Virus record (IMG/VR): IMGVR_UViG_3300025767_000082
Location: 1-31,401 of that record
DNA length: 31,401 nucleotides
Reading direction: 5' to 3' (one strand)
Source of the DNA: a virus
Both the position numbers and the translations under genes were made by a program. Each line of letters begins with the position of its first letter. The first letter of the stretch is position 1. Shown piece after piece: positions 464 through 31,059 of this stretch. The notes below the pieces were generated by a model, which made no database searches, was not told where the DNA came from, and saw only the letters and a list, made by a program, of their open reading frames with translations.

Positions 464-484
464 AATATATTCCTTTTAATTAAA

Positions 485-1579: not shown

Positions 1580-1590
1580 ATAATTATCCT

Positions 1591-1818: not shown

Positions 1819-2125
1819 TATCCTCGTCCTCATTGGTTTGTAGATGTGGTACGTTCCGCCCATACATTTCGTATTGGGCAAGCTTAGCCTTTACGTCACC
1901 AAGAGCTAAGACACAGGAATATATAAACTCCCGTGTCTTGTTCTCGTGAGGTTCTGACCGGAGAAACTGCAAGTAGTAATCTACCATTAGCTCCCCATAA
2001 GCCCCAGTGAAAAACTCTTCCCGCTCACGTTGAGCGAACTGGGCATTCACTAGGGCTTCTTTTGCTTTCACATCTGGGTGGATATTCTTCAACCGCTTCT
2101 CGGCTGTCTTCTTATACTTATCCAT
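1808..2125 (-). CDS. Small protein between portal and scaffold, function unknown
   Basis: 105 aa. GAGG lies 5 bases before the ATG (GAGGTAATA-ATG). It is charged and helix-rich: a Lys-rich N-terminus (MDKYKKTAEKRLKNIHPDVK), a central aromatic stretch (FFTGAYGELMVDYYLQFLRSE) and an acidic C-terminus (NEDEDNGQ). It begins 14 bases after the portal stop and overlaps the next gene by 11 bases, so all three appear co-translated. No family was recognised. Position in the head module suggests a structural or assembly accessory protein. Confidence 0.7.
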   Translation of the reverse strand: MDKYKKTAEKRLKNIHPDVKAKEALVNAQFAQREREEFFTGAYGELMVDYYLQFLRSEPHENKTREFIYSCVLALGDVKAKLAQYEMYGRNVPHLQTNEDEDNGQ

Positions 2126-2139
2126 TATTACCTCTTATG

Positions 2140-4359
2140 TTACTGCGGTCCCATCTGGGACATCAAACTCATCATGTCTTCAGCAGACATTTGTGCTCCC
2201 TCTGGTTGAGGGGCTGTTGGCTGCATAGGAGCCGCAGGGGTCGATGGACCCATTATTTGTTGTACCATTTGTACGATCTGACTGTACTCTGGGTGCGGAG
2301 GAATACTAACCCCTTCCTTCTGAGCCTTGATAGCAAGGTCAGCCCACTCTTGGTAATGACGATCAATCGCTACAGCAAGCTGCTTTGAATTGTCTTGAAT
2401 TGTGTTAGCACTCTGTGCATCAGTGAACTTAACGTTAGCTTCGGCAAGAGCAACATCCGCTTGTTCTTTACGCTTAGCCATTTCCTGTTGGGCCTTGGCC
2501 GCCTCACTTTGTGAGTTAACTGCTTCGATAGCTTTCTCTTTAAACTCATCAGTAGTATAGTCTTCTAGGAAATCATTACTAGAAAGACCCATCGCTTCTA
2601 ACATTTTAGTGGCCAGAATTGCAGGGGCCTCTGGACGAATAATACCTCCAGCACCTGCTGCATTCAACGCTGGTAAGATAGACTGGCCAACGGATTGCAG
2701 TTTAGTGATAAGATTAGAGTTACTGTTCTCACCGATATCCAGAATTACATCACAATCCATACGGTCTGGTAGGTTATCAATATCAATAGTTTCAATGATA
2801 CCACCAAGGCTTACAGTCATAGAACCTGCTTGCTTACGGAGAGTAGAGTAAACACCTTCACAAAGGCGCTTGAAACCAGTCTCAGCAAATCTACGTGCGA
2901 TGTGTTGGATACGTTTCTGGGAAGCTGACTGTACAGCTGCAAGCTTTTGTTCACTGTTACCAGAGACATACAGTGTATCGTTAAGACCTTGAGCGGCCTT
3001 TGACATACCTGTTGCTTGTTCTTTAATTGTTTGTAAATGTTGAAGCAGAGGTACCGTACCTGTAGAGATTGTCTCAGGTGCCAAAGCTGCAACAGCACCA
3101 TTAGGGTTACCGTTAGTTGGGATGATCTGCTTAGGCTTCATGTTCTGCAATGCAGAGAAGTCCACCACATTGGGGTCAGCAAGCTTAGGGCTATAGTTAG
3201 TGAGGTAAGTGTTCTCAACAAAACCACGCAGGATAGCAGTAGCTGCCAAGGTAGACGAACGGGTAAAGTCTGCAATAGACAAACCATAGAACTCATAGGG
3301 TATGTCAATTGGAGATAAGACAGCCATTGGCTTCATGTCGCAATCTTCTTCATCGAGCACCTTAGGTCCAGCCATGATGAAACGCTTAAGCTCAGCGACA
3401 CCGTCACCATCCCGGTCAACATTCATCCAGCATTCAGTTACAGTCAACTCACGATTAGCCTCAAGGGGATTGGCACTTTCACCATTCTGCCAGTAAGACA
3501 TGCCGATAACTTCTTTACGTGAAGCTACATCGGAACTGTATCGGTTACTACCAGCCCACTCGTTACCGGCAAGCTCATCCCACTCGTCATCACTAATGTT
3601 GCTTGCAACGTCAGGCCAGTACTTACGGATCTCACTGCGGGTCATGGTGGTCTGGATGCCCACGAAGGAAGCATCATCGATAGACGTAGCATCACGGGAG
3701 ATACGGAAGTTCTCAGGGGGTACATTCTCAATGCGTACTTTAGAGCGGTCAGTGGTTCGCTTAATGCGTACATTCACATAGACAAGCTCTGCTTCACCAT
3801 TGAGGTCTACTTCATTTTCATACTGGAGATCTCCAACGATCTCAACAGTCTCATCAGAGAGGAGTTCATCCAGCTTGGATTGAGAGATTGAATCATACTC
3901 TTCAAAGCTGATGTGGTAATCTTCCACGAAGTCCCATCGGATGATAGCATTCTTCCAGAGGAGAGATGACTTGATCCAAGTCTGTAAAGTCTCCCATCCT
4001 TTATTCTGTTTAAATATACAATAGTTAGTTATTAAGGATGCATCATGCGCTTGCTTAAATGCTCCGGGGGTATTTGCGTAAGGTGTGAACTTTGCGATTT
4101 TACCATTGTTTAAGAAGAGATCACAAAGGACTGCGGTATAAGCCTCTACTGTTTCAGTTGTTGATGTATCAACGATAGTGCTGACACCCTGAGGTAGGAG
4201 GTGTCCATTGGGAACCCCTGCGTACTCATAAGTACTCTTCTGCCGCTCTTTGGTCAGGTCAGATGAGTTTAACCAGTCTCCTGCACTATTAGCAATACCA
4301 GAAGATACAAGCTCTGCTACCTGTTCATCTGTTACTTTTTCCTTATATCCGTAATTCAT
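2140..4359 (-). CDS. Portal (head-tail connector) protein
   Basis: 739 aa, forming the dodecameric ring at one capsid vertex through which DNA is pumped and ejected. Portal-like features: an N-terminal segment typical of long podovirus portals (KERQKSTYEYAGVPNGHLLP, then TSTTETVEAYTAVLCDLF), a wing/clip region with VENVPPEN-type text (RIENVPPENFRISRDAT, about residues 210-230), and a long C-terminal helical region from about 600 (Ala/Gln/Lys-rich, QSEAAKAQQEMAKRKEQAD), ending in a Pro/Gln/Met-rich tail (about 700-739). It is about 200 residues longer than the T7 portal and nearer in size to P22-type portals, which carry a long C-terminal barrel. GGAGGA precedes the ATG. It begins directly after the stop of the 44-aa gene. 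Portal class is solid; the P22-like subclass is inference. Confidence 0.85.
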   Translation of the reverse strand: MNYGYKEKVTDEQVAELVSSGIANSAGDWLNSSDLTKERQKSTYEYAGVPNGHLLPQGVSTIVDTSTTETVEAYTAVLCDLFLNNGKIAKFTPYANTPGAFKQAHDASLITNYCIFKQNKGWETLQTWIKSSLLWKNAIIRWDFVEDYHISFEEYDSISQSKLDELLSDETVEIVGDLQYENEVDLNGEAELVYVNVRIKRTTDRSKVRIENVPPENFRISRDATSIDDASFVGIQTTMTRSEIRKYWPDVASNISDDEWDELAGNEWAGSNRYSSDVASRKEVIGMSYWQNGESANPLEANRELTVTECWMNVDRDGDGVAELKRFIMAGPKVLDEEDCDMKPMAVLSPIDIPYEFYGLSIADFTRSSTLAATAILRGFVENTYLTNYSPKLADPNVVDFSALQNMKPKQIIPTNGNPNGAVAALAPETISTGTVPLLQHLQTIKEQATGMSKAAQGLNDTLYVSGNSEQKLAAVQSASQKRIQHIARRFAETGFKRLCEGVYSTLRKQAGSMTVSLGGIIETIDIDNLPDRMDCDVILDIGENSNSNLITKLQSVGQSILPALNAAGAGGIIRPEAPAILATKMLEAMGLSSNDFLEDYTTDEFKEKAIEAVNSQSEAAKAQQEMAKRKEQADVALAEANVKFTDAQSANTIQDNSKQLAVAIDRHYQEWADLAIKAQKEGVSIPPHPEYSQIVQMVQQIMGPSTPAAPMQPTAPQPEGAQMSAEDMMSLMSQMGPQ

Positions 4360-4494
4360 TTACTTCCTCCAAGGGATGTCTTTAGATTTTTCTAGTTGTT
4401 GACTATTGTAGCTACCCGCCTTGGGTAACTCCCTTGGCTTTTTTGTTTCTTTCTTTGCAGTCTTGGTGCTTTGTACTTGTTCATTAAATCGCAT
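4360..4494 (-). CDS. 44-aa basic protein upstream of portal
   Basis: The frame is open from 4569, but the ATG at 4494 has a strong ribosome site (AGGAGGG, 5 bases before), so I use it. The protein is 44 aa, starts MRFNEQVQSTK and is Lys/Arg-rich (KTAKKETKKPRELPK). No membrane segment or family was recognised. Its stop directly abuts the portal start, so it is probably translated with portal. The upstream 75 bases lie after a terminator and probably hold a promoter or the mRNA leader of the portal operon. Confidence 0.6.
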   Translation of the reverse strand: MRFNEQVQSTKTAKKETKKPRELPKAGSYNSQQLEKSKDIPWRK

Positions 4495-4495
4495 C

Positions 4496-4595
4496 TGTTC
4501 CCTCCTAGGGTCTCTCAAGCTAACTATAAAGGAGACTATTGCTACTTGCCCATATTGATGTACATACAATGTTAGTAGGTACGGTCTCCTAATAT
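4496..4595 (-). promoter_or_regulatory. Leader or possible promoter of the portal-capsid operon
   Basis: A terminator (4596-4630) separates terminase from the portal group, so transcripts for the latter either read through or begin here. On the minus strand the segment contains TAGTCTCCTTTATAG (near 4540-4525), which resembles the TAGTCCCTATAGG motif found elsewhere in this window only if two small gaps are allowed. No convincing -35/-10 pair was seen. Low-confidence promoter call. Confidence 0.25.
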
Positions 4596-4630
4596 AAAAA
4601 AGGTATCGTTACTTTCCCCGAGCGATACCA
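4596..4630 (-). terminator. Intrinsic terminator between terminase and the portal operon
   Basis: Read on the minus strand, GGTATCG (4629-4623) pairs perfectly with CGATACC (4608-4602) around a 14-base loop, followed at once by six T (4601-4596). It lies 55 bases after the terminase stop in the direction of transcription. Confidence 0.7.
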
Positions 4631-4684
4631 GACTCGGCGAGGACTAATGGAAATCGTTAGTAGTCGTTCCACTACTCTTTTTAA

Positions 4685-6337
4685 TCATAACCAGCTAGTG
4701 TTGTCCTGTTCATACTGAGACACTCTGGTTGACCACGGCACATTAGTATTCTGTAGTTTATCCCAATGGGTTCTAAGGACTTCACAGGCAATTGCTAATC
4801 CAATCACTGTGTCATCATTACAACCGGGTGCTGCTTCAGTCTTACCTGTGGCTGTGGATATATAATCTTTTAATTCTTGTATCATAATGTTAGAGGGTAT
4901 GTTCACCTCTTCGTTCTCAATAAGAGACTTAAGGTTACCAATTATGGCTGGTTTGGAAGCTGAAGTGGTCCTAAAGCCTACACGAGAACTTTCTGTACTA
5001 GAGACATTAGCGGTCTTCTGTTGCTTGTACAGGTTAACATAGTTCATTGATTCTAGCTTTTGTATTGTAGCAACACCCATGGAGTTACTCTCTGGGCACA
5101 GAAGTGCGTTGTTGTAGTAACGTCCAAGGTAGAATAACAACTCTCCAAACAAAGAGGGGTCTATCCGGTTATCCCTGTAGAGGGCCATAACCTTTCGTTC
5201 ATTGTTTAAGACAACAGCAACTGAATAATCTAGACCTACGCCTAATGCGACATCAGCAGAGATAACGTAACTGGTATCCCACTGGGGGTACTCAAAGATA
5301 TGCAGCTTACCTTCTCGGTTATCTTCGAATTGTTTACTATTAATGTCCCAAGCACGGATACTCTCCGGGGCTTCAGGGATTAGTTTTTCTAGCTTCTCTG
5401 TATCAAAGACGTTAGAGCCGGAGACAATAAATGCCTCATCGGGGGTGGATGGGTATTCCTGACGGAACTTTAACTCACCACTCTCAGCTATCTTAAGTCT
5501 TCTCCAGTATAGTTGATCATTGTCTAATTCAAACCTTTCAACTAAAGACTCTTCATCAGCCGTTAGTATCATACCCTCAGGGGCTTCTCTACGGTATTCC
5601 TTTGTGAGGAACCATGGTAGGAAGATTGGTATGTATTCATTCTCTCCAGCTACTGCACCTTTCCACAGACGATAGAACTCACCTTGAGCGCCATTCGCCG
5701 TACTCTCAAGTATAACCTCAGTACCTTCCGCTTGAGATATACCTTGGAATAAACCTGCGAGGATCTTCTCATCATGGTTCCAAAAGGCAACCTCAGACAA
5801 GTGAGCAATCGTTGGAGTTGTACCCCTACCAGCTTCAGGTGAGCCAGCAGTGTAAAGACGGTAGCTAGCTTTAGCTTCCTTATCCTTAAAGTAAGGTGAG
5901 GATATAATGATTTCTTTTGCATTACTACGTTCCTCTTTGGGGGCTAAGTCTTCAGTCATATTCCTAATGAGGTTCTTTGACATACTGAAGAGAGCATCTG
6001 AAGTGGCACTGTCGTGGGCCATTACAACTGATCTAGAGTGTGGGGAGAAGTATGACTTCCAGTACACCCTACCTACACAGTACGTAGAGATACCCATCTG
6101 TCTTGCCTTAAGGATAATAGCCCTGACCTTACCAGTCTCTTTAGCTTGTGCAGCCAATGCATCAGTTATTCTTTGTTGGGCTTCATTCAAGACAAAAGGG
6201 ACAAAGCCCTTACTAGAGTCTTTAGTGACAATCCGTATTTGTTCCTGTGAGAACTTCTTGAAGTCTTCAGAATACTCTTTGAGTTTCTGTCTCTTCTCCT
6301 TTTCCTTCACAAGCTTTATTAATTCTTTCTTATCCAT
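4685..6337 (-). CDS. Terminase large subunit (packaging ATPase-nuclease)
   Basis: 550 aa; pumps DNA into the procapsid through the portal and cuts concatemers. The ATPase domain shows a variant Walker A KARQMGIST (residues 77-85), Walker B with catalytic Glu in IAHLSEVAFW (E182), and coupling motif ESTANG (211-216). The RNase H-like nuclease domain shows ISADVALG (D362) with D370, an acidic CPESNSMG (E416) and CNDDTVIG (D508/D509). All expected catalytic acids are present. GAGG precedes the ATG by 8 bases. It is the first minus-strand gene leaving the divergent control region, and is followed by a terminator, so its expression may be set apart from the structural genes. A candidate small subunit lies at 11452-11850 in the opposite block. 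Confidence 0.93.
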   Translation of the reverse strand: MDKKELIKLVKEKEKRQKLKEYSEDFKKFSQEQIRIVTKDSSKGFVPFVLNEAQQRITDALAAQAKETGKVRAIILKARQMGISTYCVGRVYWKSYFSPHSRSVVMAHDSATSDALFSMSKNLIRNMTEDLAPKEERSNAKEIIISSPYFKDKEAKASYRLYTAGSPEAGRGTTPTIAHLSEVAFWNHDEKILAGLFQGISQAEGTEVILESTANGAQGEFYRLWKGAVAGENEYIPIFLPWFLTKEYRREAPEGMILTADEESLVERFELDNDQLYWRRLKIAESGELKFRQEYPSTPDEAFIVSGSNVFDTEKLEKLIPEAPESIRAWDINSKQFEDNREGKLHIFEYPQWDTSYVISADVALGVGLDYSVAVVLNNERKVMALYRDNRIDPSLFGELLFYLGRYYNNALLCPESNSMGVATIQKLESMNYVNLYKQQKTANVSSTESSRVGFRTTSASKPAIIGNLKSLIENEEVNIPSNIMIQELKDYISTATGKTEAAPGCNDDTVIGLAIACEVLRTHWDKLQNTNVPWSTRVSQYEQDNTSWL

Positions 6338-6462
6338 ATCATAGTCCTCGTTGACTAATCTGTTGGGGTTTCTGTGGGGAGAAGGTACTTACCCCAATAT
6401 AACTTTGGGACCCCCCCTTGATGTCTTTGAGGGAAGCTCTCAAGCCTGTGTGAGAGAGACAG

Positions 6463-6483
6463 GATATATATGTACCCCTAATA
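6463..6483 (-). promoter_or_regulatory. Possible leftward promoter box (TTAGGGGTAC + alternating AT)
   Basis: On the minus strand the text reads ATTAGGGGTAC directly followed by ATATATATC, about 125 bases upstream of the terminase start. The same box followed by a TA-run occurs in mirror image at 6776-6806 before the first plus-strand gene. The symmetry suggests paired divergent promoters. Confidence 0.4.
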
Positions 6484-6504
6484 TATTTCCACACCCCCCT
6501 TAGT

Positions 6505-6526
6505 CTTCTCAGAGGCTTCTCAGAGG
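6505..6526 (+). repeat. Tandem 11-bp repeat CTTCTCAGAGG x2
   Basis: Two perfect head-to-tail copies, 6505-6515 and 6516-6526, directly abutting the CCACGCAAGCGTG element. Possibly a protein-binding site or replication slippage product. Confidence 0.7.
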
Positions 6527-6541
6527 CCACGCAAGCGTGTC
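6527..6541 (+). repeat. Hairpin element copy 1 (CCACGCAAGCGTGTC)
   Basis: The core CACGC-AA-GCGTG is an inverted repeat. This copy matches the other three over 15 bases but lacks their flanking ACG and terminal G. It is followed by the pyrimidine-rich TCTTTT. See copies 2-4 at 8037, 11405 and 18784. Confidence 0.75.
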
Positions 6542-6623
6542 TCTTTTGCAGGAGTGCTTACACCCCCTGACGTCTACTAAAGGGTCCTACGGGGTCCTGT
6601 GGGGCTTTAAAGCATACTCTCTT

Positions 6624-6636
6624 CCTATAGGGACTA
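6624..6636. promoter_or_regulatory. TAGTCCCTATAGG-type motif, inverted copy
   Basis: The plus strand reads CCTATAGGGACTA, the exact reverse complement of the motif at 11379-11391. CTATAGGGA is the start-site core of T7-family promoters, so this could be a site for a phage RNA polymerase, but the CCTATAGG core is palindromic and its direction is unclear. Confidence 0.35.
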
Positions 6637-6762
6637 CCGAAGCTCCTAATAGCACAGGTACTTACGGGAATACTGTGGGGTTCTGTGGGGATCTAGGGGA
6701 ACCGAAGGGCTATGCTACAAGAGATTCCCAAAGACCTCTCCAAGCACTCAATTGCGGGAATT

Positions 6763-6806
6763 CTCGTTAGTCCCTTTAGGGGTACCCCCGGTACTATATA
6801 TATATC
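6763..6806 (+). promoter_or_regulatory. Possible rightward promoter region before the first plus-strand gene
   Basis: CTCGTTAGTCCCTTTAGG (6763-6780) matches the 18-mer CTCGCTAGTCCCTATAGG at 11374-11391 with two changes. It overlaps the TTAGGGGTAC box (6776-6785), a perfect GGGGTACCCC palindrome (6779-6788) and a TATATATATATC tract (6795-6806). The first start codon is 32 bases further on. Confidence 0.4.
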
Positions 6807-6837
6807 TATACTTAACCAATGACACTAGGAGACCACT

Positions 6838-7149
6838 ATGTCATACACTTACTACAGAGCTATGTCCCGAGAGGAATACAGTAGTATCCTTGAGGACAAC
6901 TATGGTATGCATGATCCTAGAGAAACCTACTGGGCTGATTGTGTATCAGTTGCTAAGCGTTACCTTAATCCTGAGAGGGTTCTGGTAGAGCTTACTTTGG
7001 ATAGACCAATCAACCCTGATTACCTTAGGGTAGCTGAGTACGTCTCTAGTAATGGAGACAACAACAACCATTACGAGTACTGTATGGCTCGTGATTACTT
7101 CTGGAGGGTTGTCCTCCCATCAACATTAGATATTGGAGTAGTAGCATGA
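6838..7149 (+). CDS. First plus-strand gene, unknown 103-aa protein
   Basis: Starts MSYTYYRAMSREEY; AGGAG lies 6 bases before the ATG. It is acidic to neutral and rich in Tyr/Asn/Glu, soluble in appearance, with no transmembrane segment (ends in LDIGVVA). No family recognised. As the first gene rightward from the control region it should be among the earliest expressed, where phages often put host-takeover proteins; that role is inference from position only. Its end overlaps the next gene by 4 bases (ATGA). Confidence 0.7.
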   Translation: MSYTYYRAMSREEYSSILEDNYGMHDPRETYWADCVSVAKRYLNPERVLVELTLDRPINPDYLRVAEYVSSNGDNNNHYEYCMARDYFWRVVLPSTLDIGVVA

Positions 7150-8036: not shown

Positions 8037-8055
8037 ACGCCACGCAAGCGTGTCG
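8037..8055 (+). repeat. Hairpin element copy 2
   Basis: ACGCCACGCAAGCGTGTCG, identical over these 19 bases to copies 3 and 4, followed by CTTTATAG. It lies 53 bases before the ssDNA-binding protein start, in the 325-bp stretch 7784-8108, which otherwise holds only the broken gene and a weak CCC-AATTTC-GGG hairpin near 8070. Confidence 0.8.
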
Positions 8056-8108
8056 CTTTATAGCAATTCCCAATTTCGGGACAAACAACATAGAGGAAGG
8101 TAGCAATC

Positions 8109-11322: not shown

Positions 11323-11391
11323 AGGTAACCGACAAAAAGCATTGCGGCTTTCCCCCGCAGATCTCCTAAAGATCTCGCTAGTCCCTATAGG
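11323..11391 (+). promoter_or_regulatory. Promoter-like segment: GTAACCGACAAA box and CTCGCTAGTCCCTATAGG
   Basis: AGGTAACCGACAAA (copy 2 of the box at 8633) follows the terminator, and CTCGCTAGTCCCTATAGG (11374-11391) repeats the 6763-6780 element. Hairpin copy 3 follows at 11405. Three different repeated elements in one 100-bp gap just after a terminator and before a well-started gene make this the best promoter region outside 6338-6837. Confidence 0.45.
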
Positions 11392-11404
11392 ACAACATTA
11401 GACC

Positions 11405-11424
11405 TACGCCACGCAAGCGTGTCG
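11405..11424 (+). repeat. Hairpin element copy 3
   Basis: TACGCCACGCAAGCGTGTCG, identical to copy 4 over 20 bases, followed by TTATTAAG. It lies 27 bases before the next start codon. Confidence 0.8.
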
Positions 11425-11451
11425 TTATTAAGAGATTACAAAGGAGACTTT

Positions 11452-18783: not shown

Positions 18784-18803
18784 TACGCCACGCAAGCGTG
18801 TCG
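18784..18803 (+). repeat. Hairpin element copy 4
   Basis: TACGCCACGCAAGCGTGTCG, followed by TTTTTTAAGG. Immediately after the MazG-like stop and 18 bases before the next start. The T-run after this copy would also suit a terminator. Confidence 0.8.
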
Positions 18804-18821
18804 TTTTTTAAGGAAAGGATA

Positions 18822-20624: not shown

Positions 20625-22709
20625 ATGAACTGGTTAGAAAACGTAGAGCTATACCTAAGATTAAAACTAACAGGGAATCCCACTCGGGATTCCTTCGGGG
20701 TAACCCTCCTCAAGAAGTATCCCGAATCTATGGATAGGCTCCAAGAGTATGGGCAAATAGCACACCTTGTTATCAGTCGGCAAGCTAAGAATGTAAGCGG
20801 TAATATACATTGTAAACTAACAGTAACAAGTATCGCTATTGGCAAGAGCATCCTCTCCACTCTAACCAAATCTAAAAGAAATGATTGGAAAGATGAGGTG
20901 CGCCTTGGTGACCTCTTCATCGAAGCATTCTACCGGCTAGGTTTTATTGATATTGTTAAACCTGAGTTCAGATCAACACGGCCCGTGGAGATTATACTCT
21001 TGGGTACATTCCCATCAGAACTCCCAGAGCCTGTCGTCAAGATGGCACTGCATGGTGTGTGGAATCAAAAGCCTAAAGATATTAATAGGGCTGAACAAAT
21101 AATCCAGTTCAACATTGATAGTCTCAAGTACACTGTACCTATCGTGAAGCGCTGGGATGAAGTCCTCGATGGACCCTTCAAGGATCTGTTAAAGACTAAA
21201 GCAATCAAGGCCGTTAACAAACTACAACAAGTGGGTTGGACTATCAACAAGGATGTACTAGCAGCTGTCGAGAGCAACCCGTATATGTTCTACAAAGAGC
21301 ACGACAAGTCTAGTGAGAACCTGTCAAAGAAGATTGACTACGCTTACACTGTAACAAAGGCCAAGGTCTTATCCAAAGAGGACAGCTTCTACTACGCACT
21401 GGATGTAGATTACCGTGGTCGTGTTTACTATGTTGAGAGCTACATGAACTTCCAAGGATCGGACCTAGCAAGGGGGCTTCTGTGCTTCTCTGAGGAGGCT
21501 TTAGTTACCCCCAGTGGGTTACGCTGGCTTAAGATACATTGTGCCTCCTCGTACAACGAGAGCTATTCTAAGGACAATATACCAGCGTGGTGTACATCGG
21601 ATTACAGATCACACCTAGATGCTGAAGGATTGGATGATATCTCTGTGGACAAGATGACCTTGAGGGACAGGGAGCTGTGGGTAGACAACAACATACTTGA
21701 AGTTTACAAAACAGCATTAACAAAAACACTACACAGCTGTGAGAAACCAGTGGCATATCTGGCAGCTTGTATAGAACTACTTAAATATAAGGAAGCCAAT
21801 GGTAATTATTACTCTCGTATGCCTGTACCAATTGATGGTAGCAACAATGGATGGCAACACCTAGGGGCGATCTCTAAGGATGTACAAACAGCTGAGCTTG
21901 TTGGTCTTGTTCCAGTCGATATTCAGAATGACTTCTATGTGCAGACAGCAAAGAAGCTAATCGAGATTACAAAGGATGTAACTCGAAGTTCAATACTGCA
22001 AGAGATGCCCATGAAGAAAATCCGAAAGGGTATCAGTAAGCGTGGGAGCATGACAAGAGCTTACTCCGCAGGCGCTCAGAAGATCGCAGAGAATATGTAT
22101 CAGGACTGTAAGGGGTATGGTTACTGTGCCGAGTATGGTATCACTGAAGAGATCTGCAAAGGTCTTGCAAGAGATCTAGTCAAGGCTATTCAGTTAGTCT
22201 GTCCCGGTCCTCTTCAAACCATGAAGTACCTACAACAACTAGCTAATGATAGGTTAGACCAAGGCTATGGTTACATGACATGGACTTCACCCTCAGGGTT
22301 CCCTGTGATCTATACCTGCAACCATCAACGCTCAGAGAAACAACGAGGGACTATTAGTGGCATCGGCCAGATCAACCACGTAGCTAAGGTAGATACCAAC
22401 GTGTCTGACCGTAGGGGTTTTATGTGTGGGATCTCACCTAACTTTATCCACTCACAAGATGCAGCGCACATGAGTTTAGTCATCGATGAATTTGATGGTG
22501 TCTTTGGGGCTGTCCACGATAGCTTCAGTACCCATGCATCGAAAGTCGATGAGCTACTTAAGATAACCAAACGAGTCTTTGTTGAGATATACAATGAAGA
22601 TAACTACTTTGATAACATCCAGAATAGGATTGAAGCAACAGCTGATCAACCAATAACTGGTAGTTTAAACATACAAGATGTGGAGAAGTCAGATTACTTC
22701 TTCGCCTAA
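20625..22709 (+). CDS. Single-subunit phage RNA polymerase, T7-like (intracellular)
   Basis: 694 aa. Motifs in order: DYRGRVYYVESYMNFQG (DxxGR, 262-266), motif A PIDGSNNGWQHLGA (D404), motif B KGISKRGSMTRAYSAG (K472, Y480), FIHSQDAAHMS (about 607-617) and motif C VHDSFSTHA (D632), equivalent to T7 D537, K631, Y639 and D812. T7's G640 is a Ser here (S481). It is about 190 residues shorter than T7 RNA polymerase, mainly N-terminal, where T7 contacts promoter DNA. It lies after primase-helicase, so it is probably made mid-infection and drives late genes. A strong hairpin lies in its 5' coding part. Confidence 0.93.
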   Translation: MNWLENVELYLRLKLTGNPTRDSFGVTLLKKYPESMDRLQEYGQIAHLVISRQAKNVSGNIHCKLTVTSIAIGKSILSTLTKSKRNDWKDEVRLGDLFIEAFYRLGFIDIVKPEFRSTRPVEIILLGTFPSELPEPVVKMALHGVWNQKPKDINRAEQIIQFNIDSLKYTVPIVKRWDEVLDGPFKDLLKTKAIKAVNKLQQVGWTINKDVLAAVESNPYMFYKEHDKSSENLSKKIDYAYTVTKAKVLSKEDSFYYALDVDYRGRVYYVESYMNFQGSDLARGLLCFSEEALVTPSGLRWLKIHCASSYNESYSKDNIPAWCTSDYRSHLDAEGLDDISVDKMTLRDRELWVDNNILEVYKTALTKTLHSCEKPVAYLAACIELLKYKEANGNYYSRMPVPIDGSNNGWQHLGAISKDVQTAELVGLVPVDIQNDFYVQTAKKLIEITKDVTRSSILQEMPMKKIRKGISKRGSMTRAYSAGAQKIAENMYQDCKGYGYCAEYGITEEICKGLARDLVKAIQLVCPGPLQTMKYLQQLANDRLDQGYGYMTWTSPSGFPVIYTCNHQRSEKQRGTISGIGQINHVAKVDTNVSDRRGFMCGISPNFIHSQDAAHMSLVIDEFDGVFGAVHDSFSTHASKVDELLKITKRVFVEIYNEDNYFDNIQNRIEATADQPITGSLNIQDVEKSDYFFA
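20674..20693 (+). other. Hairpin within the start of the RNA polymerase gene
   Basis: GGAATCCC (20674-20681) pairs perfectly with GGGATTCC (20686-20693) around ACTC, about 50 bases into the coding region. Could slow translation or be a cleavage site; it encodes ordinary text, so chance cannot be excluded. Confidence 0.4.
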
Positions 22710-22719
22710 GGAGATTATT

Positions 22720-22986
22720 ATGTCACAGAATAAAAACTATAACATGTTAGCATTGCGTGGTCTCGATATAGATGACATGGATTACGTTGAAGAGCTTGGG
22801 ATTGACCCCAAGGTAGCCTACACACCAGCAATCAATGATGCCATCCTTGATAAAGTGTACCAACAAAACTTGGAGTACTACCGCAGGGAGGGTATTGATG
22901 AGAAGCAAGCAGTCAAACAAGCTGACCAGTACCGAGCAACCGCTAAAGAAACTGTCAACAAACTCATGGCCAAAGTCTTAAACTAA
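22720..22986 (+). CDS. 88-aa protein between RNA polymerase and ThyX, function unknown
   Basis: Start at 22720 (AAGGAG 6-7 bases upstream); the open frame from 22678 overlaps the polymerase gene and is not used. Starts MSQNKNYNMLALRGLDIDD, then DYVEELGIDPKVAYTPA; the C-terminal half is a basic helical segment (EYYRREGIDEKQAVKQA). No recognised family. Operon position with late-middle genes is the only clue. Confidence 0.65.
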   Translation: MSQNKNYNMLALRGLDIDDMDYVEELGIDPKVAYTPAINDAILDKVYQQNLEYYRREGIDEKQAVKQADQYRATAKETVNKLMAKVLN

Positions 22987-22996
22987 GGGTAACTTA

Positions 22997-23665
22997 ATGT
23001 CTAACGTAAACTTGATCTCTATGTCTAAGCCCTCAGCAATTACAGGGTGCCATACAGCTAATGATTTAATTGCATACACAGCCCGGATAAGTAATCCAAC
23101 TAATCAGAATAACTCAGAGACAGCACCTAAGCTGATCCAGTATCTGATCCGAGAAAACCATTGGTCTCCTTTTGAAATGGTACACATGACACTGGAGATT
23201 AAAACAACAAGGGATATAGCAAGACAGATAATTCGACATCGATCCTTTGCATTCCAAGAGTTCAGCCAGAGGTACGCTCTGAGTGAGAACTTCAGTGCTC
23301 GGGAAGCAAGACTACAGGACACTAAGAACAGGCAGAACTCAGTGGACATTGATAAGAGTGATCCAGTGCAAGCAAGGCTGGCAGAAGAGTGGAGTATCAA
23401 ACAACACAAACTGATGAGGGACGTGAAGGAAATTTACAAGTGGGCAGTACAGAATGGCATCGCAAAGGAACAGGCACGAGCCGTCTTACCGGAGGGGAAT
23501 ACTGAAACTACTTTGTACATGTCGGGAACATTGAGATCATGGATTCACTACTGTGAACTTAGGATGGGTAATGGTACTCAGAAAGAGCACAGGGAGGTTG
23601 CGGAAGGTTGCTGGGATATTATCACCCACCACTTTCCAGATGTTAAGAAAGCACTAGTTAAATAA
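22997..23665 (+). CDS. thyX: Flavin-dependent thymidylate synthase ThyX
   Basis: 222 aa. The ThyX signature RHRx7S is present as RHRSFAFQEFSQRY (R80, H81, R82, S90, R92). HWSPFEMVHMTLEI and ARAVLPEGNTETTLYMSG are also typical. Converts dUMP to dTMP using FAD and methylene-tetrahydrofolate. It completes the dNTP module with RNR, the gp1.7-like protein and MazG. Last gene of the plus-strand block; a bidirectional terminator follows directly. Confidence 0.95.
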   Translation: MSNVNLISMSKPSAITGCHTANDLIAYTARISNPTNQNNSETAPKLIQYLIRENHWSPFEMVHMTLEIKTTRDIARQIIRHRSFAFQEFSQRYALSENFSAREARLQDTKNRQNSVDIDKSDPVQARLAEEWSIKQHKLMRDVKEIYKWAVQNGIAKEQARAVLPEGNTETTLYMSGTLRSWIHYCELRMGNGTQKEHREVAEGCWDIITHHFPDVKKALVK

Positions 23666-23668
23666 AAT

Positions 23669-23710
23669 AAGGGGAACCTCGGGCATTGCGCCTTGGGTTC
23701 CCCTTTTTTT
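23669..23710. terminator. Bidirectional terminator between convergent blocks
   Basis: AAGGGGAACC (23669-23678) pairs with GGTTCCCCTT (23696-23705). A run of T follows on the plus strand (23704-23712) and, read from the other side, TTATTTTATTT follows on the minus strand. It stops both ThyX-side and late-gene transcription. Confidence 0.92.
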
Positions 23711-26700
23711 TTAATGCATGTAATACTGAAACACAGACTTACCAGCGGCGTTAATATCTGACCGCAATGCTTTCTTATTATGGTTTACTTTATTACGAAG
23801 TTGAGTCAGTCTCTGATTGAGAGCCATCTCTTTGTTGAGCAACTTATGGAAGTGCCTCACCTGCTTAACAGTAGCCTGTGTCGGGTTAGTGCTAAACTTA
23901 TAACCAACATCACGCATACCCTTTTGGATGTTAGCCAGTGATTGATCCACGTTCAACACATCAACATTCTCAAGGTGTCTCTTCAAAGCTACAGGGGTTG
24001 CATCACCATACGCATCCACCTCAAGGCCAGTCAAAGATCCCATCATCTGGTGGACCTCGTTCAGACCAACATTAACTACAGAGTCTGGTGAGAGTCCCTT
24101 CAGTGTTTCTTCAAATGCTAACTCGGCTCTCTTGTTAGTATCTATAATCTCCTGCATGAAGTCCCAGTCCATGGTGGCGTTCACCCAGTTCTCATTAACA
24201 TCGTTCAACACAATATCATAACCATTAGCATCCATCTTAAAGGCATCGTAGATCTGGTAAAGATACGGATCACCACGGGAAGCATCATTAAGCCTACGCC
24301 AAGTGTTACCAGTAAATGTCAAAGCAGCAGTTGCTGCATCGATAGACTGTACCGAAGCTACAACAGAACGGTTCATTGTCTTAACACCAACCATGGGCTT
24401 GCCATTAACCAACTCAGCAGCTGCCGCAGATCGTCTAAGGGAACCATACCTTTCGATAGAACGCTGAGACCTCTCTCCCTTAGTGAACTCTGTCCACTTA
24501 ACCTCACCGACCTTACCACTTACAGAACCCCCAAGAGAGATCTCCATGCCAGTAGCAGTTGTCATTGTGAATGGTATATCTGCAAGAGCTGCATTAGCTG
24601 CCACACCTTTCAAGATTGATCTTGTTTGGATTGCCTCGTTAGACAGGACCTCGTGCAGACCAGTCGTGTACGTTGGTAATAGCAGCGCTGACAGTGATTT
24701 ATTATCTGTCACTGACTGCAATGCAGCAAACGCTTCCTGATAACCAACAAGGTTGTTACTCTCAAGTTCCTCTTGGGACATAAGGGCAGCTTCTTCGTTG
24801 ACACGGAACATAGCGTCTGAGATATCACTAACAAAAGATTTAATATCACGGCCATAACCAAAGGTCATTGTCGTGTATTTGTTGAGTGCTCTGTTGTTGA
24901 AGACCGCTCTAGCTACTGTGTAAACGTGAGGTGCAGCATCCCCCAAGAGGGACTCACTGCCGGCAATGCCGTCCACATCTATCACATCAGCTAAGGTCTC
25001 GGCGAGCTGATCCCTGATGTCACCCTTATCTAGGAGGACTTTATCCTGACTCCTCAACACACCAGTCATAAAGGCCATTGCCTTAGACCCCATGAGCATA
25101 CCCCATGCAGCCAAACCGTTAGTCTTACCATCGATGTATGCGTTAAAGAAGGAACTATGCCCAGCTGGGTTGTTGTCAACGATCACAGCTTTGTGGAACT
25201 TAACAAAGTCTAAGAGACCATCTATGTACAGAGGACCATCCTCACCCGCCTTGGCAATAGCTGCAATCAACGCACCGTCAATCTCTGGATCTAAAGCTAG
25301 TCCAGAAAACTTCGGGAAGTTTGGATCTAACAAGGACACACCGTCCTCGATGGCTTGGTATATCTCATCCGCTTTCTCAGGAGAGATCGCCTCGTCAAGT
25401 AATGCTTGTAGCCGTTTACCCCAAGAGAGAAGCTGGGGTGTTGCCCTGAGGAGCATTGCAGGTCTCTCTGAGGGTAATGCTTCTGACCCACCATCAACTA
25501 AGTGTAGTGCATACATCTGCTCCAAGTTACGATGGACCCGGTTACCACGTTTAGCAACAGCCGGTTGAGCACCTCTTGTAACAAAACGAACAAGCTTCGA
25601 GGAACTGGGATCAAACAAAGATTGCTGTGGTGCAGTACGTCCGTTAAAGCCCTGCATGTAATACGTCAAGTAGTTAATACCCTTGCGTTCTTTTGCGATA
25701 CCAAACAGGTGCTGAGCTGTTGATGTTTTGATTGATTCAAGAACAACGTTAGCACTGTACTCCGTCTGCTCTGGGTTCTCAGCGAGGGCTGCTTTCTCTT
25801 GAGCAATAAGGGCGGACATCTTTTTAGGACCAATGTTGTGCATGTTAGCAAACAAATCAACGACAGGCTGGCCACTACCGGGCTGACTAAGGAGTGCTGG
25901 CAGCAAGGTCGCTAGTGCAACCCGGCTTCTAGTACGGTCAACAATGTGGCCTACCGTGCTTTGGTTACGCATCGCTTGGTCAATCAGCCTAGTGTTTACA
26001 CGTTTCACTGGAGAACGTACAAGGGTTTTGAACTCACCAACTAGCTTACCATTAACTGGTTTAGTTTTAAGCGGGGATACTAGATTCTTACCGAAAGCCT
26101 TCTTCCGTAAAGCATCTGCTTGCTTAAAAACAATAGCACCTTCTGGGGTTAGCTGGTATACCTTTGGCTTCTTAGCATCACCGGCACTAACCACATCCTC
26201 GCTTTCACGGATAAGATCTGGGTTAACCTTGACATAGTTTGAGAGCATGGCAGCACCAAGTGCTGTCGCCTGCTCAGAGGTCAGATCAGCAGAGACCGTG
26301 GCATTGTTGTTGCGTTGGTACTCACGGCTTATCGCTTGCCCCACACGCTCAGCTACCTTAGCAGCAGGTACTTGAGTCACGAGGGCCATCTCTGGTTCTG
26401 TGACTGGTTCACCAGCAGCCTTGAGAACTACATCCTGAGTCTCAGGGATTCCCTGTAGGTAATCAGAAAGCGTGTTCTCAATGGTAGCCGAAGCTACAGT
26501 TAAGAAGGTAGGTGATAGTTTCTTATCTACCTTGCTTGGATCTAAAACACTCTGAGTTGTTTCAATAGCACTCCAAGGACCTACTTCATTAGTCCCTGTC
26601 AGAAGGTCAAGGGCAGCCACAAGTGGTCTTGCCTGCACATCAGGTGATCCTGCAAGAACCCGTGGATCTTGGTACAGACCAACACCAACTGCCCCTGAGT

Positions 26701-27097
26701 CAAAGGCATCACGTAGCGCCCTCGCTCTAACGAACAGACCGTTATTGCCTTCTGTTGCAGATCTCTTAGAGTCTGCTTTGTACTTGTAAATGTTTGAGGG
26801 ACCTCCCGGCGCAGCTAAGTTTTCCCTAATACCGGGAAGCGCTTCTGCTTCTTGCTGAGCTTTTATTGCCGCCGCTCTCTCAGCTTCTGCGGCGATACCT
26901 TCAAGCACCCCCGCTTCAACAAGAGGCTCTGTCCCTACGGTAGGCGCTGTGGCAACTGAGGGTTGCTGTACAGGCGCTTCTGCTTCTTGTATTGGGGTTA
27001 CCTCAGGGGTAACACCAAGTGTCTCTACGGGTGTTTCAAAGCCCTCAGAGGGCACCGGCATACCGGGCCTCCCCTGAGCTGTAATTATCTTACCCAT
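23711..27097 (-). CDS. Putative virion RNA polymerase (single-subunit, N4 vRNAP-like in concept)
   Basis: 1128 aa. Residues about 20-95 are Ala/Pro/Glu/Val-rich and probably disordered. From about 475 the single-subunit RNA polymerase landmarks appear in order: FNGRTAPQQSLFDPSSSKL (R487; T7 R425 context), motif A FFNAYIDGKTNGLAAWG (D656), motif B RALNKYTTMTFGYG (R736, K740, Y748, G749; T7 R627, K631, Y639, G640 with identical internal spacing), SVQSIDAATAALTF (D920; T7 HSQD box), and motif C YQIYDAFKMD (D951; T7 D812). It is encoded with late giant proteins, not with replication genes, so I infer it is packaged and ejected to transcribe first genes. The C-terminus is basic and helical. AAGGAG precedes the ATG and overlaps the end of the gene before it. 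Overall similarity is low; function needs biochemical proof. Confidence 0.75.
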   Translation of the reverse strand: MGKIITAQGRPGMPVPSEGFETPVETLGVTPEVTPIQEAEAPVQQPSVATAPTVGTEPLVEAGVLEGIAAEAERAAAIKAQQEAEALPGIRENLAAPGGPSNIYKYKADSKRSATEGNNGLFVRARALRDAFDSGAVGVGLYQDPRVLAGSPDVQARPLVAALDLLTGTNEVGPWSAIETTQSVLDPSKVDKKLSPTFLTVASATIENTLSDYLQGIPETQDVVLKAAGEPVTEPEMALVTQVPAAKVAERVGQAISREYQRNNNATVSADLTSEQATALGAAMLSNYVKVNPDLIRESEDVVSAGDAKKPKVYQLTPEGAIVFKQADALRKKAFGKNLVSPLKTKPVNGKLVGEFKTLVRSPVKRVNTRLIDQAMRNQSTVGHIVDRTRSRVALATLLPALLSQPGSGQPVVDLFANMHNIGPKKMSALIAQEKAALAENPEQTEYSANVVLESIKTSTAQHLFGIAKERKGINYLTYYMQGFNGRTAPQQSLFDPSSSKLVRFVTRGAQPAVAKRGNRVHRNLEQMYALHLVDGGSEALPSERPAMLLRATPQLLSWGKRLQALLDEAISPEKADEIYQAIEDGVSLLDPNFPKFSGLALDPEIDGALIAAIAKAGEDGPLYIDGLLDFVKFHKAVIVDNNPAGHSSFFNAYIDGKTNGLAAWGMLMGSKAMAFMTGVLRSQDKVLLDKGDIRDQLAETLADVIDVDGIAGSESLLGDAAPHVYTVARAVFNNRALNKYTTMTFGYGRDIKSFVSDISDAMFRVNEEAALMSQEELESNNLVGYQEAFAALQSVTDNKSLSALLLPTYTTGLHEVLSNEAIQTRSILKGVAANAALADIPFTMTTATGMEISLGGSVSGKVGEVKWTEFTKGERSQRSIERYGSLRRSAAAAELVNGKPMVGVKTMNRSVVASVQSIDAATAALTFTGNTWRRLNDASRGDPYLYQIYDAFKMDANGYDIVLNDVNENWVNATMDWDFMQEIIDTNKRAELAFEETLKGLSPDSVVNVGLNEVHQMMGSLTGLEVDAYGDATPVALKRHLENVDVLNVDQSLANIQKGMRDVGYKFSTNPTQATVKQVRHFHKLLNKEMALNQRLTQLRNKVNHNKKALRSDINAAGKSVFQYYMH

Positions 27098-27099
27098 GT

Positions 27100-30000
27100 T
27101 TACTCCTTATTATATCCCCATTCATCAGCTGGTTGAGTTATATTCTCAACAAGTGTATCACGTAGCTTTGGTAGGCTACCGAGAGGTGTTAGTTTAGCAG
27201 CAGCCTTAGCTGCCTTGGTGTAGTCACCCTCGATGAGGGAACCTGTTGCTGTCATAAGTTTATCTAAAGTACCAAGAGCTGGTGCTTCCCCAGATGTTTT
27301 ATTCCAAGCCCAGTCAGCATAACCCTGAGATCGAGACTCATACATTGGTGCTATAAAATCAATAACACGCTGGCCAGTACCGAGAAGACCAGATGAAGAC
27401 ACAGCCCTCCGGGCTTTCTCCATATCGTCAAGGTATGGGTTTTCTGTACCCCACTTCATCCTATCCTTTAATTCCTGAGAGGCATACCCCATAGCAATCA
27501 TGAGGACCATCATAGAAAATGCATGGTATTTCATTTGAGGACTACCACGTTTGACATACTCTCCCCAAAGCTTAGGGATAAATGTAGATTGGAAAACAGC
27601 AATAAAGCCTGAGAACTGAGTGAACATTGCAAACCGAGGATCATGATAGATCATAGGTCGGTTAGCAGTTGTTGGCATCATGATGGCATCATTGATAAAT
27701 GCAAAGGTACCATTAGTTATTTCATTTCTCAGCTGCTCTGCCTCTACTTCTGTCAAGGGATAGTTAAACGCTTGTTTCTTAGCTAGCTCTGTAAACAACT
27801 CAACATTAATGTGCAGGTTGCGTAAGTGCTCCTCAGCTTCCTCAACAGCTTTAGTCTTGGGAGTGCTGCTATCCCACAGGTAGATTGTCTCTGCGTGGTT
27901 CAGCATATAGTCCCAAGCAATAGATGCACGGACTGCCCTTGTCATTTGGGTCCAACCTTGCAAACCGTTCCACTTAAAGAACTGAGAGATTAGGTTTTGT
28001 TTCAATGCATTGGTTTCAGTCACACCTGTTTTAGATGCAGCTCCAGCTTCTTGCTCGTTGTAACCAAGCTCTTGGATAATACGCTGACCGTTAGTTTCAG
28101 TTTTGGCTAGCTCTACCCTAGTGATTGTGGAGAATATCTCCTTACCACCATTATAGAACATAGTCCCAAGTTCAACACCGGCTGCCTTCAAACCACCCTT
28201 ACCGAATATCTGTTGGTTAGTTAATCCTTTAAACAAAAGCATAAGCTCTACGGTAGAACTAACAGTTGCTGTACTCAAGGCTCCAAGAATCGTAAAGGTT
28301 AAGAAGTTCTTTTGGATCTTCTGTGCCAACTTACCAGCGTCTGTGGTTGCCCTCTTGTAGTTACCTGACTCAGCATCAAGGTAATCCTTCATCTTCTTAG
28401 CGATCCTAATAAGATCAGCTTCAGATACGCCCTCCGCCCTTGCCTTCTCTAGCTGTGCTGCGATAACACTACCGTTAATACCTACATACTTTTGATATGC
28501 AACAAAACGTGCAGCAGACTTAATAGCGTAGTTGACATTTGTGAAGATGTCCTGCTCTAAGAACTTATCAAATGCAGGATTCTCAGAGAGCCCCAAGGTC
28601 CTTGCCCTATGTGAGCCGGGTATTGGGGTACCGTCTGTTACCGAGAATGCCTTATCATCAGGTAATAAACCATCGATGTCATTCTTGTTAGGGTTCTCAA
28701 TAATGTTAGTTGCAATATCATTAGCCATTGCTTCAGTCATCCCGTGGGACTCACCATACTCTGACATTAAGGCGGTTATAAAACCAGCCCTGTCACCGGC
28801 AACAGCGTTCTTGTTAAGTGATTTAAACTTAGAGAAGTAGTTACTAATCTCACCAACATCACCATACTTTTGTTGTTCCTTCAACATACTATCAGACAAT
28901 CGTTGTAGTCTTTCAATCTCCTTAATATAGAGTTCCCTGTTGGGCATCTCTGGTATCTTAGATGTATCGAGAACACCCTTGTCGTTAACAGCGTCCCGCC
29001 AGATATTGTAGAACTGACGGCTTAAGAGTTCCCTTTTCTTACGGCTAGGTCTGATACCCCCATTAATGGTTGAATAAAACTCTGTTGGTTTTGTGTAGGC
29101 GTTCTCCCACTTTGCAACTAACAAGTGTTTAAAAGATTCAAAATCATTACCACTGTATGTTGTTTGAAGACCACCACCAAACGATGCAGCTAACTTACGA
29201 ATAGATGGAGAGATATTTTTCAACCGATCTAAGAATATGAAACGAGTAGATCCACGCCAGAAGCGAGTGCTTGAGACAGCCACATCAAACACGGTGTCCG
29301 CCTTTGTACGTTCGCCTTTAGGCTCTTCTTTCTCAGCAAGCTCATTAAAGATATTCTTATCAGGAGATACAGCAGCTGCCCTTCGAGCTTCCTCTAGGTT
29401 CTCATCTATTGTAGGTATGAACCCATTGTTAGTTCTCCTTTCTTCTTCGGCCCACTTACCAGAGTCGGACAAACCACTACCGTCTGCTTCAGTACCTCCC
29501 CAAATAGCTGCCTCCCACTGGGCTTGGTTGGTCACACCACTGGCTGTCCCTAAAGAACCACCAAGGGCAGCACCAGCCACAGCAGCTTGGGTCATACGGT
29601 TTAACGCCTCATTAAAGTCAAATGAAGAATCCTCAATGTGAGCCGCAGTATAACCAATCAGTTCCTGAACCGCTTCAGTAGCGCCCTCAGTTACAGTACC
29701 AGCAGCACCACTCTTTAAGATATCTTTAATGGCATCACGACTTCTTAGTTGATCTTTAAGAATACGTGAAGCGTCTGTGGAGATACCTGCAAGCTGTGAC
29801 TTAGACATTTGAATAACATCTTTCAGTGCAGCCTGAGTCATTCCTTCAGTGACTTCAATCCCAAGCTCTTTAGCTTTCTTAATTGCTAATTGCTCAGCAG
29901 CAGCGTTAAGCATTTTCTGTGGGGTATCAAGCTTACCAAAACCACCAATAAGTTTAGTAACACCAAACAAATCTAAAGCACCTTGGATTGCACCACCACC

Positions 30001-31059
30001 AACAGCAAGTGCCCAGTTCTTAGCATTATCTGCTTGTTCGTTCCAGATAGACCCAGCATACACGCTTGCAGGAACCAGTAAAGAAAGACCACCTGTATAC
30101 GGGGCTGCTACCAAGGAAGCTGTTGACATAGCCATGTACGGTAATGACATACCTGCGTTATTACTTACAAACTCCCAAGCATCTCCAGCGCTATCTACAT
30201 CCTGATAGTCCAAAAGAACTTGAGCACGGTTAGCCATCTCGGTACCTTTGCGGTAGACTCCGTTTTCACCAAACTCCTTAACAGAATCAAGACCTAAAGT
30301 GTCTCCAAGCATTTCAGCAACACCGTATGAAGCCTCAGCAAAACCAACCATCGCAGCCCCTACGGAACTAGAGAAAGGATTGTACGCTTGGTTCTTTAAG
30401 TTCCTATCCTTGTGCCGGAACATAACTGTATCCGTTAAGTACTTGCTTGGGTTAGCAGCGTACTGTTGTTCGTTGAGTGCTAGTTCTTTAAACTTAGTTG
30501 CATCGTAACCCTCAGCTTCTCGTGCTGCATTAACTTGAGCGGCTAGCTCATCAAACAAAACTTGATCTTCACCTCTAGGAACAGTGTCCCCCATCCACTT
30601 AGATACTGCAATAGCTGTAAGGTCTTCCTTCGTCACCCCCTCGACAGGTTCAAACACACCAGACGTCAGTAGCTTTGTGATGAAGTCTTCACCTTTGTGA
30701 TTGACAAGACGTCCTGTCCTGCGCCCAAATGCTGCATCAATACCAGTATCTTTAATTTCTGTATAGCCATGCTTAGTTGCAAAATCCTTAACAGCCCCTA
30801 AGGCTGCTAAACCTCCTGCGGTTCCAGTTTTCTCTACCCATTCTCCAGATCTATCTTGTACCCACTTAGCTACCTCAGGTGCATCAAACCCTTGAAGACG
30901 TACATTGGGGCCCCCATCGGAGGCCACAACAGTATCTGCATCTAACCAATCGGAAACCACTAAGGGTTCCTCGATTGGCGCTTTTTTAATAGAGAGGTCT
31001 TGGCTAGCTTGTACTTGTTGGGCTTCTTGAAGAATCCCTTGTAATACATTATCAACCAT
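27100..31059 (-). CDS. Giant ejection protein with N-terminal staphylococcal-nuclease domain
   Basis: 1319 aa. Residues about 33-140 form an SNase-like domain: LDADTV (D40, D42), VRLQGFDAPE (R54, D59, E62) and FGRRTGRLV (R113), matching the nuclease residues D21, R35, D40, E43 and R87. Several hydrophobic helices follow (about 303-337, 349-372, and later GAALGGSLGTASGV, FTILGALSTATVSST and AFSMMVLMIAMGYAS). This size, layout and position fit T7 gp16-type internal virion proteins that form an envelope-crossing channel, but T7 gp16 begins with a lytic transglycosylase whereas this starts with a nuclease-like domain. GAGG precedes the start by 8 bases; the stop overlaps the next gene's ribosome site. 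Confidence 0.75.
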   Translation of the reverse strand: MVDNVLQGILQEAQQVQASQDLSIKKAPIEEPLVVSDWLDADTVVASDGGPNVRLQGFDAPEVAKWVQDRSGEWVEKTGTAGGLAALGAVKDFATKHGYTEIKDTGIDAAFGRRTGRLVNHKGEDFITKLLTSGVFEPVEGVTKEDLTAIAVSKWMGDTVPRGEDQVLFDELAAQVNAAREAEGYDATKFKELALNEQQYAANPSKYLTDTVMFRHKDRNLKNQAYNPFSSSVGAAMVGFAEASYGVAEMLGDTLGLDSVKEFGENGVYRKGTEMANRAQVLLDYQDVDSAGDAWEFVSNNAGMSLPYMAMSTASLVAAPYTGGLSLLVPASVYAGSIWNEQADNAKNWALAVGGGAIQGALDLFGVTKLIGGFGKLDTPQKMLNAAAEQLAIKKAKELGIEVTEGMTQAALKDVIQMSKSQLAGISTDASRILKDQLRSRDAIKDILKSGAAGTVTEGATEAVQELIGYTAAHIEDSSFDFNEALNRMTQAAVAGAALGGSLGTASGVTNQAQWEAAIWGGTEADGSGLSDSGKWAEEERRTNNGFIPTIDENLEEARRAAAVSPDKNIFNELAEKEEPKGERTKADTVFDVAVSSTRFWRGSTRFIFLDRLKNISPSIRKLAASFGGGLQTTYSGNDFESFKHLLVAKWENAYTKPTEFYSTINGGIRPSRKKRELLSRQFYNIWRDAVNDKGVLDTSKIPEMPNRELYIKEIERLQRLSDSMLKEQQKYGDVGEISNYFSKFKSLNKNAVAGDRAGFITALMSEYGESHGMTEAMANDIATNIIENPNKNDIDGLLPDDKAFSVTDGTPIPGSHRARTLGLSENPAFDKFLEQDIFTNVNYAIKSAARFVAYQKYVGINGSVIAAQLEKARAEGVSEADLIRIAKKMKDYLDAESGNYKRATTDAGKLAQKIQKNFLTFTILGALSTATVSSTVELMLLFKGLTNQQIFGKGGLKAAGVELGTMFYNGGKEIFSTITRVELAKTETNGQRIIQELGYNEQEAGAASKTGVTETNALKQNLISQFFKWNGLQGWTQMTRAVRASIAWDYMLNHAETIYLWDSSTPKTKAVEEAEEHLRNLHINVELFTELAKKQAFNYPLTEVEAEQLRNEITNGTFAFINDAIMMPTTANRPMIYHDPRFAMFTQFSGFIAVFQSTFIPKLWGEYVKRGSPQMKYHAFSMMVLMIAMGYASQELKDRMKWGTENPYLDDMEKARRAVSSSGLLGTGQRVIDFIAPMYESRSQGYADWAWNKTSGEAPALGTLDKLMTATGSLIEGDYTKAAKAAAKLTPLGSLPKLRDTLVENITQPADEWGYNKE

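Follow-up and report, generated by a model that had tools for sequence, protein, structure and literature searches.

The phiKZ-type jumbo phages transcribe with a packaged and a newly made RNA polymerase (RNAP) and do without the host enzyme. Their polymerases are multisubunit, whereas both polymerases of the marine phage described here are single chains. N4-like phages normally carry a heterodimeric second RNAP, and the late genes of N4 need host RNAP (PMC4496689). The virion RNAP (vRNAP) of N4, gp50, has 3500 aa and belongs to a Schitoviridae family of giant proteins (~2,000-3,800 aa) with N- and C-terminal domains and usually a fused metallopeptidase. Alteromonas phage V19 (OP751378) is an exception to the N4-like heterodimer rule. 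It encodes a 2,082-aa vRNAP (L083, 32493-38741; phrog_2206, E 1e-19) and a 670-aa RNAP in one ORF (L084, 25979-27991; phrog_2051, E 1.5e-15). Alteromonas phage R22Y is also reported to have two RNAPs, one of them a 2,083-aa vRNAP (PMC11705849). For the cultured Roseobacter phage CRP-7 (MK613349, 58.1 kb), whose host is the Rhodobacteraceae strain FZCC0042, the available part of the 2019 description reports only one RNAP (PMC6918029).

Analyzed here is a virus record of 31,401 bp (the window), a fragment with both cuts inside late genes. A 55,423-bp contig (loci L066/L067) matches it at 99.9-100% identity and has 153-bp end repeats (99.3% identical), thus the full genome is probably ~55 kb. A sequence-only reading had described a small podovirus with a T7-sized genome, a size that does not hold for a genome of ~55 kb. 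The early arm covers about 6.8-23.7 kb of the window, with its genes on the plus strand. The late arm, on the minus strand, encodes the capsid, scaffold, SU10-type portal, terminase and tail proteins, as well as two giant proteins, and the gene for a 1128-aa protein comes last. The ~55 kb genome and SU10-type portal distinguish this phage from N4. Separating the convergent blocks is a strong bidirectional terminator, whose fold z is -4.9 on the plus strand and -3.9 on the minus strand (about 23669-23710). As first read, two RNAP genes face each other across it, with a small orf (22678-22986) and thyX (22997-23665) between the plus-strand RNAP gene and the terminator.

Close to where the early block ends, the plus-strand gene (20625-22709) encodes a 694-aa protein that matches RNA_pol PF00940 (E 4e-57, 194 bits against a cut-off of 22) and phrog_414 (E 1e-105). 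Every catalytic motif is present (DYRGR, PIDGSNNG, KRGSMTRAY with K472 to Y480, and HDS), and from its sequence the protein is a T7-type single-subunit RNAP (ssRNAP), about 23-24% identical to the enzymes of T7-type phages. A heterodimeric RNAPII (gp15/gp16-like), a trait of the Schitoviridae, was not identified; the single chain holds all of the motifs. In a tree of T7-type enzymes, in which branches are long, the window's phage group falls on the T7 side as a single clade (100/100), and the V19 670-aa enzyme is on the N4 side, grouping with N4 RNAPII. The phage shares with T7 and other Autographiviridae the motifs of this enzyme and a CTATAGG promoter core, but it differs in genome layout (~55 kb, bidirectional, with two arms that converge) and in carrying the enzyme where the early block ends. 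The sequence-only reading considered a one-chain second enzyme to be a different design from that of N4. This holds against the heterodimer normal for N4-like phages, but not against V19, which already pairs a 670-aa RNAP with a vRNAP. V19 resembles the window phage in this combination and differs in its 71 kb N4-like genome and larger vRNAP; BLASTP of the V19 vRNAP against the 1128-aa protein returned no match.

The 1128-aa protein is encoded on the minus strand (23711-27097). It has no match in a Pfam search, and tblastn with it and CRP-7 gp33 against 50,697 phage records recovered only CRP-7 itself. A weak match to phrog_414 'RNA polymerase' (E 3e-7) covers residues 636-853, and one member of the family (L020) matches phrog_2206 'virion RNA polymerase' (E 4e-11). 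We aligned 32 homologous proteins and scored the catalytic columns in each row. Homologues are mostly 12-36% identical to the window's protein (21-row set), and the sequence evolves fast overall. Nevertheless, D656, Y748, G749 and D951 are invariant (32/32), position 740 is K or R in all 32, and R487 is kept in 30 (the remaining two are gapped there). R695 and two glycines are likewise conserved. The catalytic residues fall in a T/DxxGR-type motif (FNGR, R487; 25637-25648), motif A (YIDGKTNG, D656; 25115-25138), motif B (KYTTMTFGYG, K740, Y748 and G749; 24851-24880) and motif C (IYDAFK, D951; 24236-24253), all on the minus strand. The first of these (GFNGR) has the conserved Arg and lacks the T/D.

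The catalytic columns are in register with R424, D559, K670, Y678 and D951, which are invariant in nine N4-family enzymes: R487 is equivalent to R424, D656 to D559, K740 and Y748 to K670 and Y678, and D951 to N4 D951. Motif C even has the same distance from D to N (D951-N968) in the 1128-aa protein and in the N4 family. A four-sequence profile of the window's clade aligned with the N4 family in the correct register using hhalign (E 0.0013, with a probability of only 18.8%). As a yardstick, the N4 family scores no better (0.023) against T7-type enzymes, which are known relatives. The profile of CRP-7-type partners alone gave no useful match to the N4 family. At the sequence level, then, the protein has apparent homology to the N4 polymerase domain, detectable for the family and weak for the window's protein taken singly.

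It is conceivable that the 1128-aa protein is an RNAP-derived structural internal virion protein that is no longer catalytic. Its fast overall evolution and its late-block neighbor would fit such a role. This neighbor (27100-31059, minus strand) lies directly upstream of the second RNAP gene, an order kept in relatives, and encodes a 1319-aa candidate internal or ejection protein that matches phrog_6958, a virion structural protein. We consider loss of catalysis very improbable, because both catalytic Asp and the Tyr-Gly of motif B are invariant in 32/32 homologues and would be expected to be lost in a dead enzyme.

Comparison of folds was required because phmmer of the 1128-aa protein against PDB sequences found no match. 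An AlphaFold2 model based on the family alignment has a well predicted core (pLDDT 69, pTM 0.67); the first ~170 aa, for which confidence is very low, are probably disordered. Foldseek matched the model to T7 and mitochondrial RNAPs (E down to 2e-16, for T7 RNAP). With VIA, the Z score is 25.9 for T7 RNAP and 24.7 for the N4 mini-vRNAP (3c46), the latter giving the longest alignment (718 residues, rmsd 10.6). The predicted model thus has the cupped-hand polymerase fold (Z about 25), which covers residues 151-1128, compared with 85-1063 in the mini-vRNAP. A CRP-7-type partner (L059, residues 101-1231) was modelled separately (pLDDT 63) and has Z scores of 18 to T7 and 16 to N4. This partner is 13% identical to the window's protein and still has the predicted ssRNAP fold, at lower confidence.

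It is near certain that this phage encodes two ssRNAPs, given the sequence match of the 694-aa protein (PF00940, E 4e-57) and, for the 1128-aa protein, the predicted fold and invariant catalytic residues. The sequence-only reading had proposed as much, calling the latter a divergent putative polymerase. That call was fair but unproven, and fold and the catalytic columns of 32 homologues now agree with it.

Sequence register and predicted fold support assignment of the 1128-aa enzyme to the N4 virion type. It resembles gp50 in its ssRNAP fold, in catalytic residues that are in register and in being encoded by the last minus-strand late gene. Unlike the giant multidomain gp50 proteins, it is a stand-alone enzyme of 1128 aa, too short to accommodate the N-terminal membrane domain or the C-terminal metalloprotease-type domain of gp50. 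Also lacking are the four N4-specific Pfam domains (helical, dom, dom_2 and plug), which had no matches in the 1128-aa protein and all match N4. As it has neither the giant multidomain size nor these domains, we file it as a related, stand-alone variant of gp50. By analogy with N4, it would be a newly recognized form of virion-type RNAP, consisting of only the polymerase domain and occurring outside of the N4-like phages. A census of N4-like phages discarded homologues <2,500 aa and required the motif ExDGxxxG (PMC10654107), criteria that would miss this family given a length of 1128 aa and the motif YIDGKTNG.

With the 694-aa protein and its homologue in CRP-7 as queries, we fetched 60 viral loci. 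In each of the 33 loci whose DNA extends far enough past the RNAP gene, the next large ORF encodes a convergent minus-strand protein. When complete, these partners have about 1100-1330 aa and are followed by another giant late protein. CRP-7 has the same gene order as the window: DNA polymerase, primase, one-chain RNAP (gp30) and the convergent gp33 (1235 aa, QBQ72826.1), which is annotated as a hypothetical protein. Judging from the predicted fold of a close relative, gp33 (L001, 17859-21566) is with high probability another ssRNAP, and its annotation could be changed accordingly. CRP-7's vRNAP-type protein is only 13% identical to the window's, and BLASTP between the two found no significant match; what links the partners is confined to their position, motifs and fold. 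Two contigs from metagenome-assembled genomes (MAGs) also hold the convergent pair. One is a binned SAR11 contig (L091, MAG Candidatus Pelagibacter MED605) with the RNAP and its convergent partner at 37-6879; the label is possibly a host hint or the result of mis-binning.

We identified a 15-nt sequence, CCACGCAAGCGTGTC, in four exact copies, all on the plus strand (6527, 8040, 11409 and 18788). None of 100 shuffled sequences reached four copies, even with three mismatches permitted. Each copy is part of a short hairpin, considered here as a candidate promoter of the virion-type RNAP. The hairpins are at 6524-6543, 8037-8056 (upstream of an ssb-like gene), 11406-11425 (upstream of a terS-like gene, assigned by position only) and 18785-18804 (upstream of a small orf, the primase/helicase and the RNAP). 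In each unit, a pyrimidine mismatch separates a 5-bp stem from an outer stem of 3 bp. The loop is 2 nt in the window and in row G004, and 3 nt in rows L004-L007. At orthologous sites in relatives the stems differ yet stay paired (CACAC/GTGTG, CTCGC/GCGAG, ACCGC/GCGGT). There are 19 double-change cells versus 5.3 in shuffles, and 0/500 shuffles reach this number; some alignment rows were picked by a script that requires pairing, and pair counts lean that way, while rows L004-L007 and two L071 rows were located by position first. A short hairpin that covaries, is present four times and precedes early genes in the early direction alone is a new observation.

The vRNAP promoters of N4 are short hairpins, in which the non-conserved bases of the stem matter only for pairing (PMC4496689). 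N4-type hairpin promoters have a 5-7 bp stem and a 3-nt loop and precede early genes; the elements found here have 5-bp stems with 2- or 3-nt loops. Stem covariation also fits RNA, and a short T-rich stretch follows each hairpin. The hairpins could instead be RNA elements, serving in processing, stabilization of mRNA 5' ends or as weak terminators. The covariance model identified the element in the early direction only and in the window's own clade only; in other clades nothing was above noise (best 15 bits, E 1). Confinement to one clade would also suit RNA elements. The exact repetition of 15 nt within one genome suggests sequence recognition instead, in most copies the T run is shorter than a normal terminator requires, and the restriction to the early direction likewise favors promoters. 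We give the RNA-element reading an appreciable chance, though well short of even. It overlaps with the explanation preferred below and competes with it on the promoter step only, leaving the enzyme cascade intact. Repeated hairpins were not identified in the early intergenic DNA of CRP-7. One similar hairpin occurs there as a single copy in the first intergenic region (374-394; GTG.T.GCGTC.ATA.GACGC.T.CAC).

A second class of candidate promoters is 19 nt long and T7-like. One site, TTCGGTAGTCCCTATAGGA (6623-6641, minus strand), faces the late (terL) arm, and another, CTCGCTAGTCCCTATAGGA (11374-11392, plus strand), is upstream of the terS-like gene; the latter has CTATAGG and flanking bases in common with the T7 promoter. 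A weaker candidate with three mismatches is at 6763-6781 on the plus strand. On the 55-kb contig, such a site also precedes a tail-gene block (42934, minus strand). Similar sites were identified in three related genomes, before terS and terL in the one for which both genes are available, which gives four genomes with the T7-like promoter at late and early sites. We regard this sequence as a new candidate promoter upstream of late operons. In a contig near whose terminase gene tandem 12-13-nt repeats occur (L069, IMGVR 3300020595_000061, 3101-3424), AACCTATAGGGAT is present three times; the repeats resemble tandem T7-like promoters.

The explanation that we favor, and consider probable, is that two diverged ssRNAPs are used in sequence, the packaged enzyme first and the T7-type enzyme second. 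The 1128-aa enzyme, the last product of the late operon, would be packaged and enter the cell with the DNA, acting as a stand-alone version of the polymerase domain of the N4 mini-vRNAP. It would start the plus-strand early and replication block, most likely at the short hairpin promoters. The 694-aa T7-type enzyme would then be made from near the end of this block and would read the minus-strand late genes, and at least one plus-strand site, from the T7-like 19-nt CTATAGG promoter. Late transcription would yield the next packaged enzyme. A two-stage cascade had been suggested by the sequence-only reading. The anatomy fits, and there are two candidate promoter classes; the enzymes' roles in it we can only infer. 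Packaging of the 1128-aa protein is suggested by its late-block position and the analogy with N4, and the pairing of each polymerase with a promoter element, as well as independence from host RNAP, is likewise inferred. Counting against the model, the hairpin class was found only in the window's clade and not in CRP-7-type genomes, the window's loops have 2 nt where those of N4 have 3, the hhalign probability for the N4 family is low, and none of the N4-specific Pfam domains matches.

Alternatively, the second ssRNAP could be active but unpackaged, functioning in very late transcription or in priming of replication, with host RNAP starting the early genes. T7-type phages begin with host RNAP, and the late-block location of the 1128-aa gene would allow this reading. 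We consider it unlikely. The gene occupies the position of N4 gp50, as the last gene of a minus-strand late block, and hairpins precede early genes only. Sigma-70-like sites are not enriched in the early block (24 found versus 34 expected). If the two enzymes are used in sequence, the late genes of the window phage may be transcribed with no need for host RNAP, unlike those of N4.

More broadly, and with somewhat less than even confidence, we suggest that a podovirus lineage widespread in marine waters, one of whose members is in culture, transcribes its genome without host RNAP, using a packaged, hairpin-reading, stand-alone mini-vRNAP and a T7-type late enzyme. If this is true, the lineage combines a vRNAP with a one-chain enzyme, as would be expected had virion RNAPs arisen before the N4 heterodimer. 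The occurrence of a bare polymerase domain and a one-chain T7-type enzyme in one family bears on the order in which vRNAP and heterodimer arose. As CRP-7 is in culture, the question of two RNAPs is open to experiment. The 1128-aa enzyme is also a candidate small hairpin-promoter RNAP.

Other features of these genomes were noted. By eye, the N-terminus of the 1319-aa late protein has a staphylococcal-nuclease-type motif (DADTVV...RLQGFDAPE); a Pfam search with its first 150 residues gave no match. In the late arm outside of the window, the 55-kb contig encodes a 2279-aa repetitive, tail-fibre-like protein rich in Ala, Ser and Thr (45805-52644). The B12-dependent ribonucleotide reductase of CRP-7 (35552-38170) is annotated in two pieces (gp44 and gp46) with a small ORF between them, which suggests insertion of an intron, intein or homing gene. 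The window encodes this reductase in a single uninterrupted gene, which is on the early arm, opposite to that of CRP-7.
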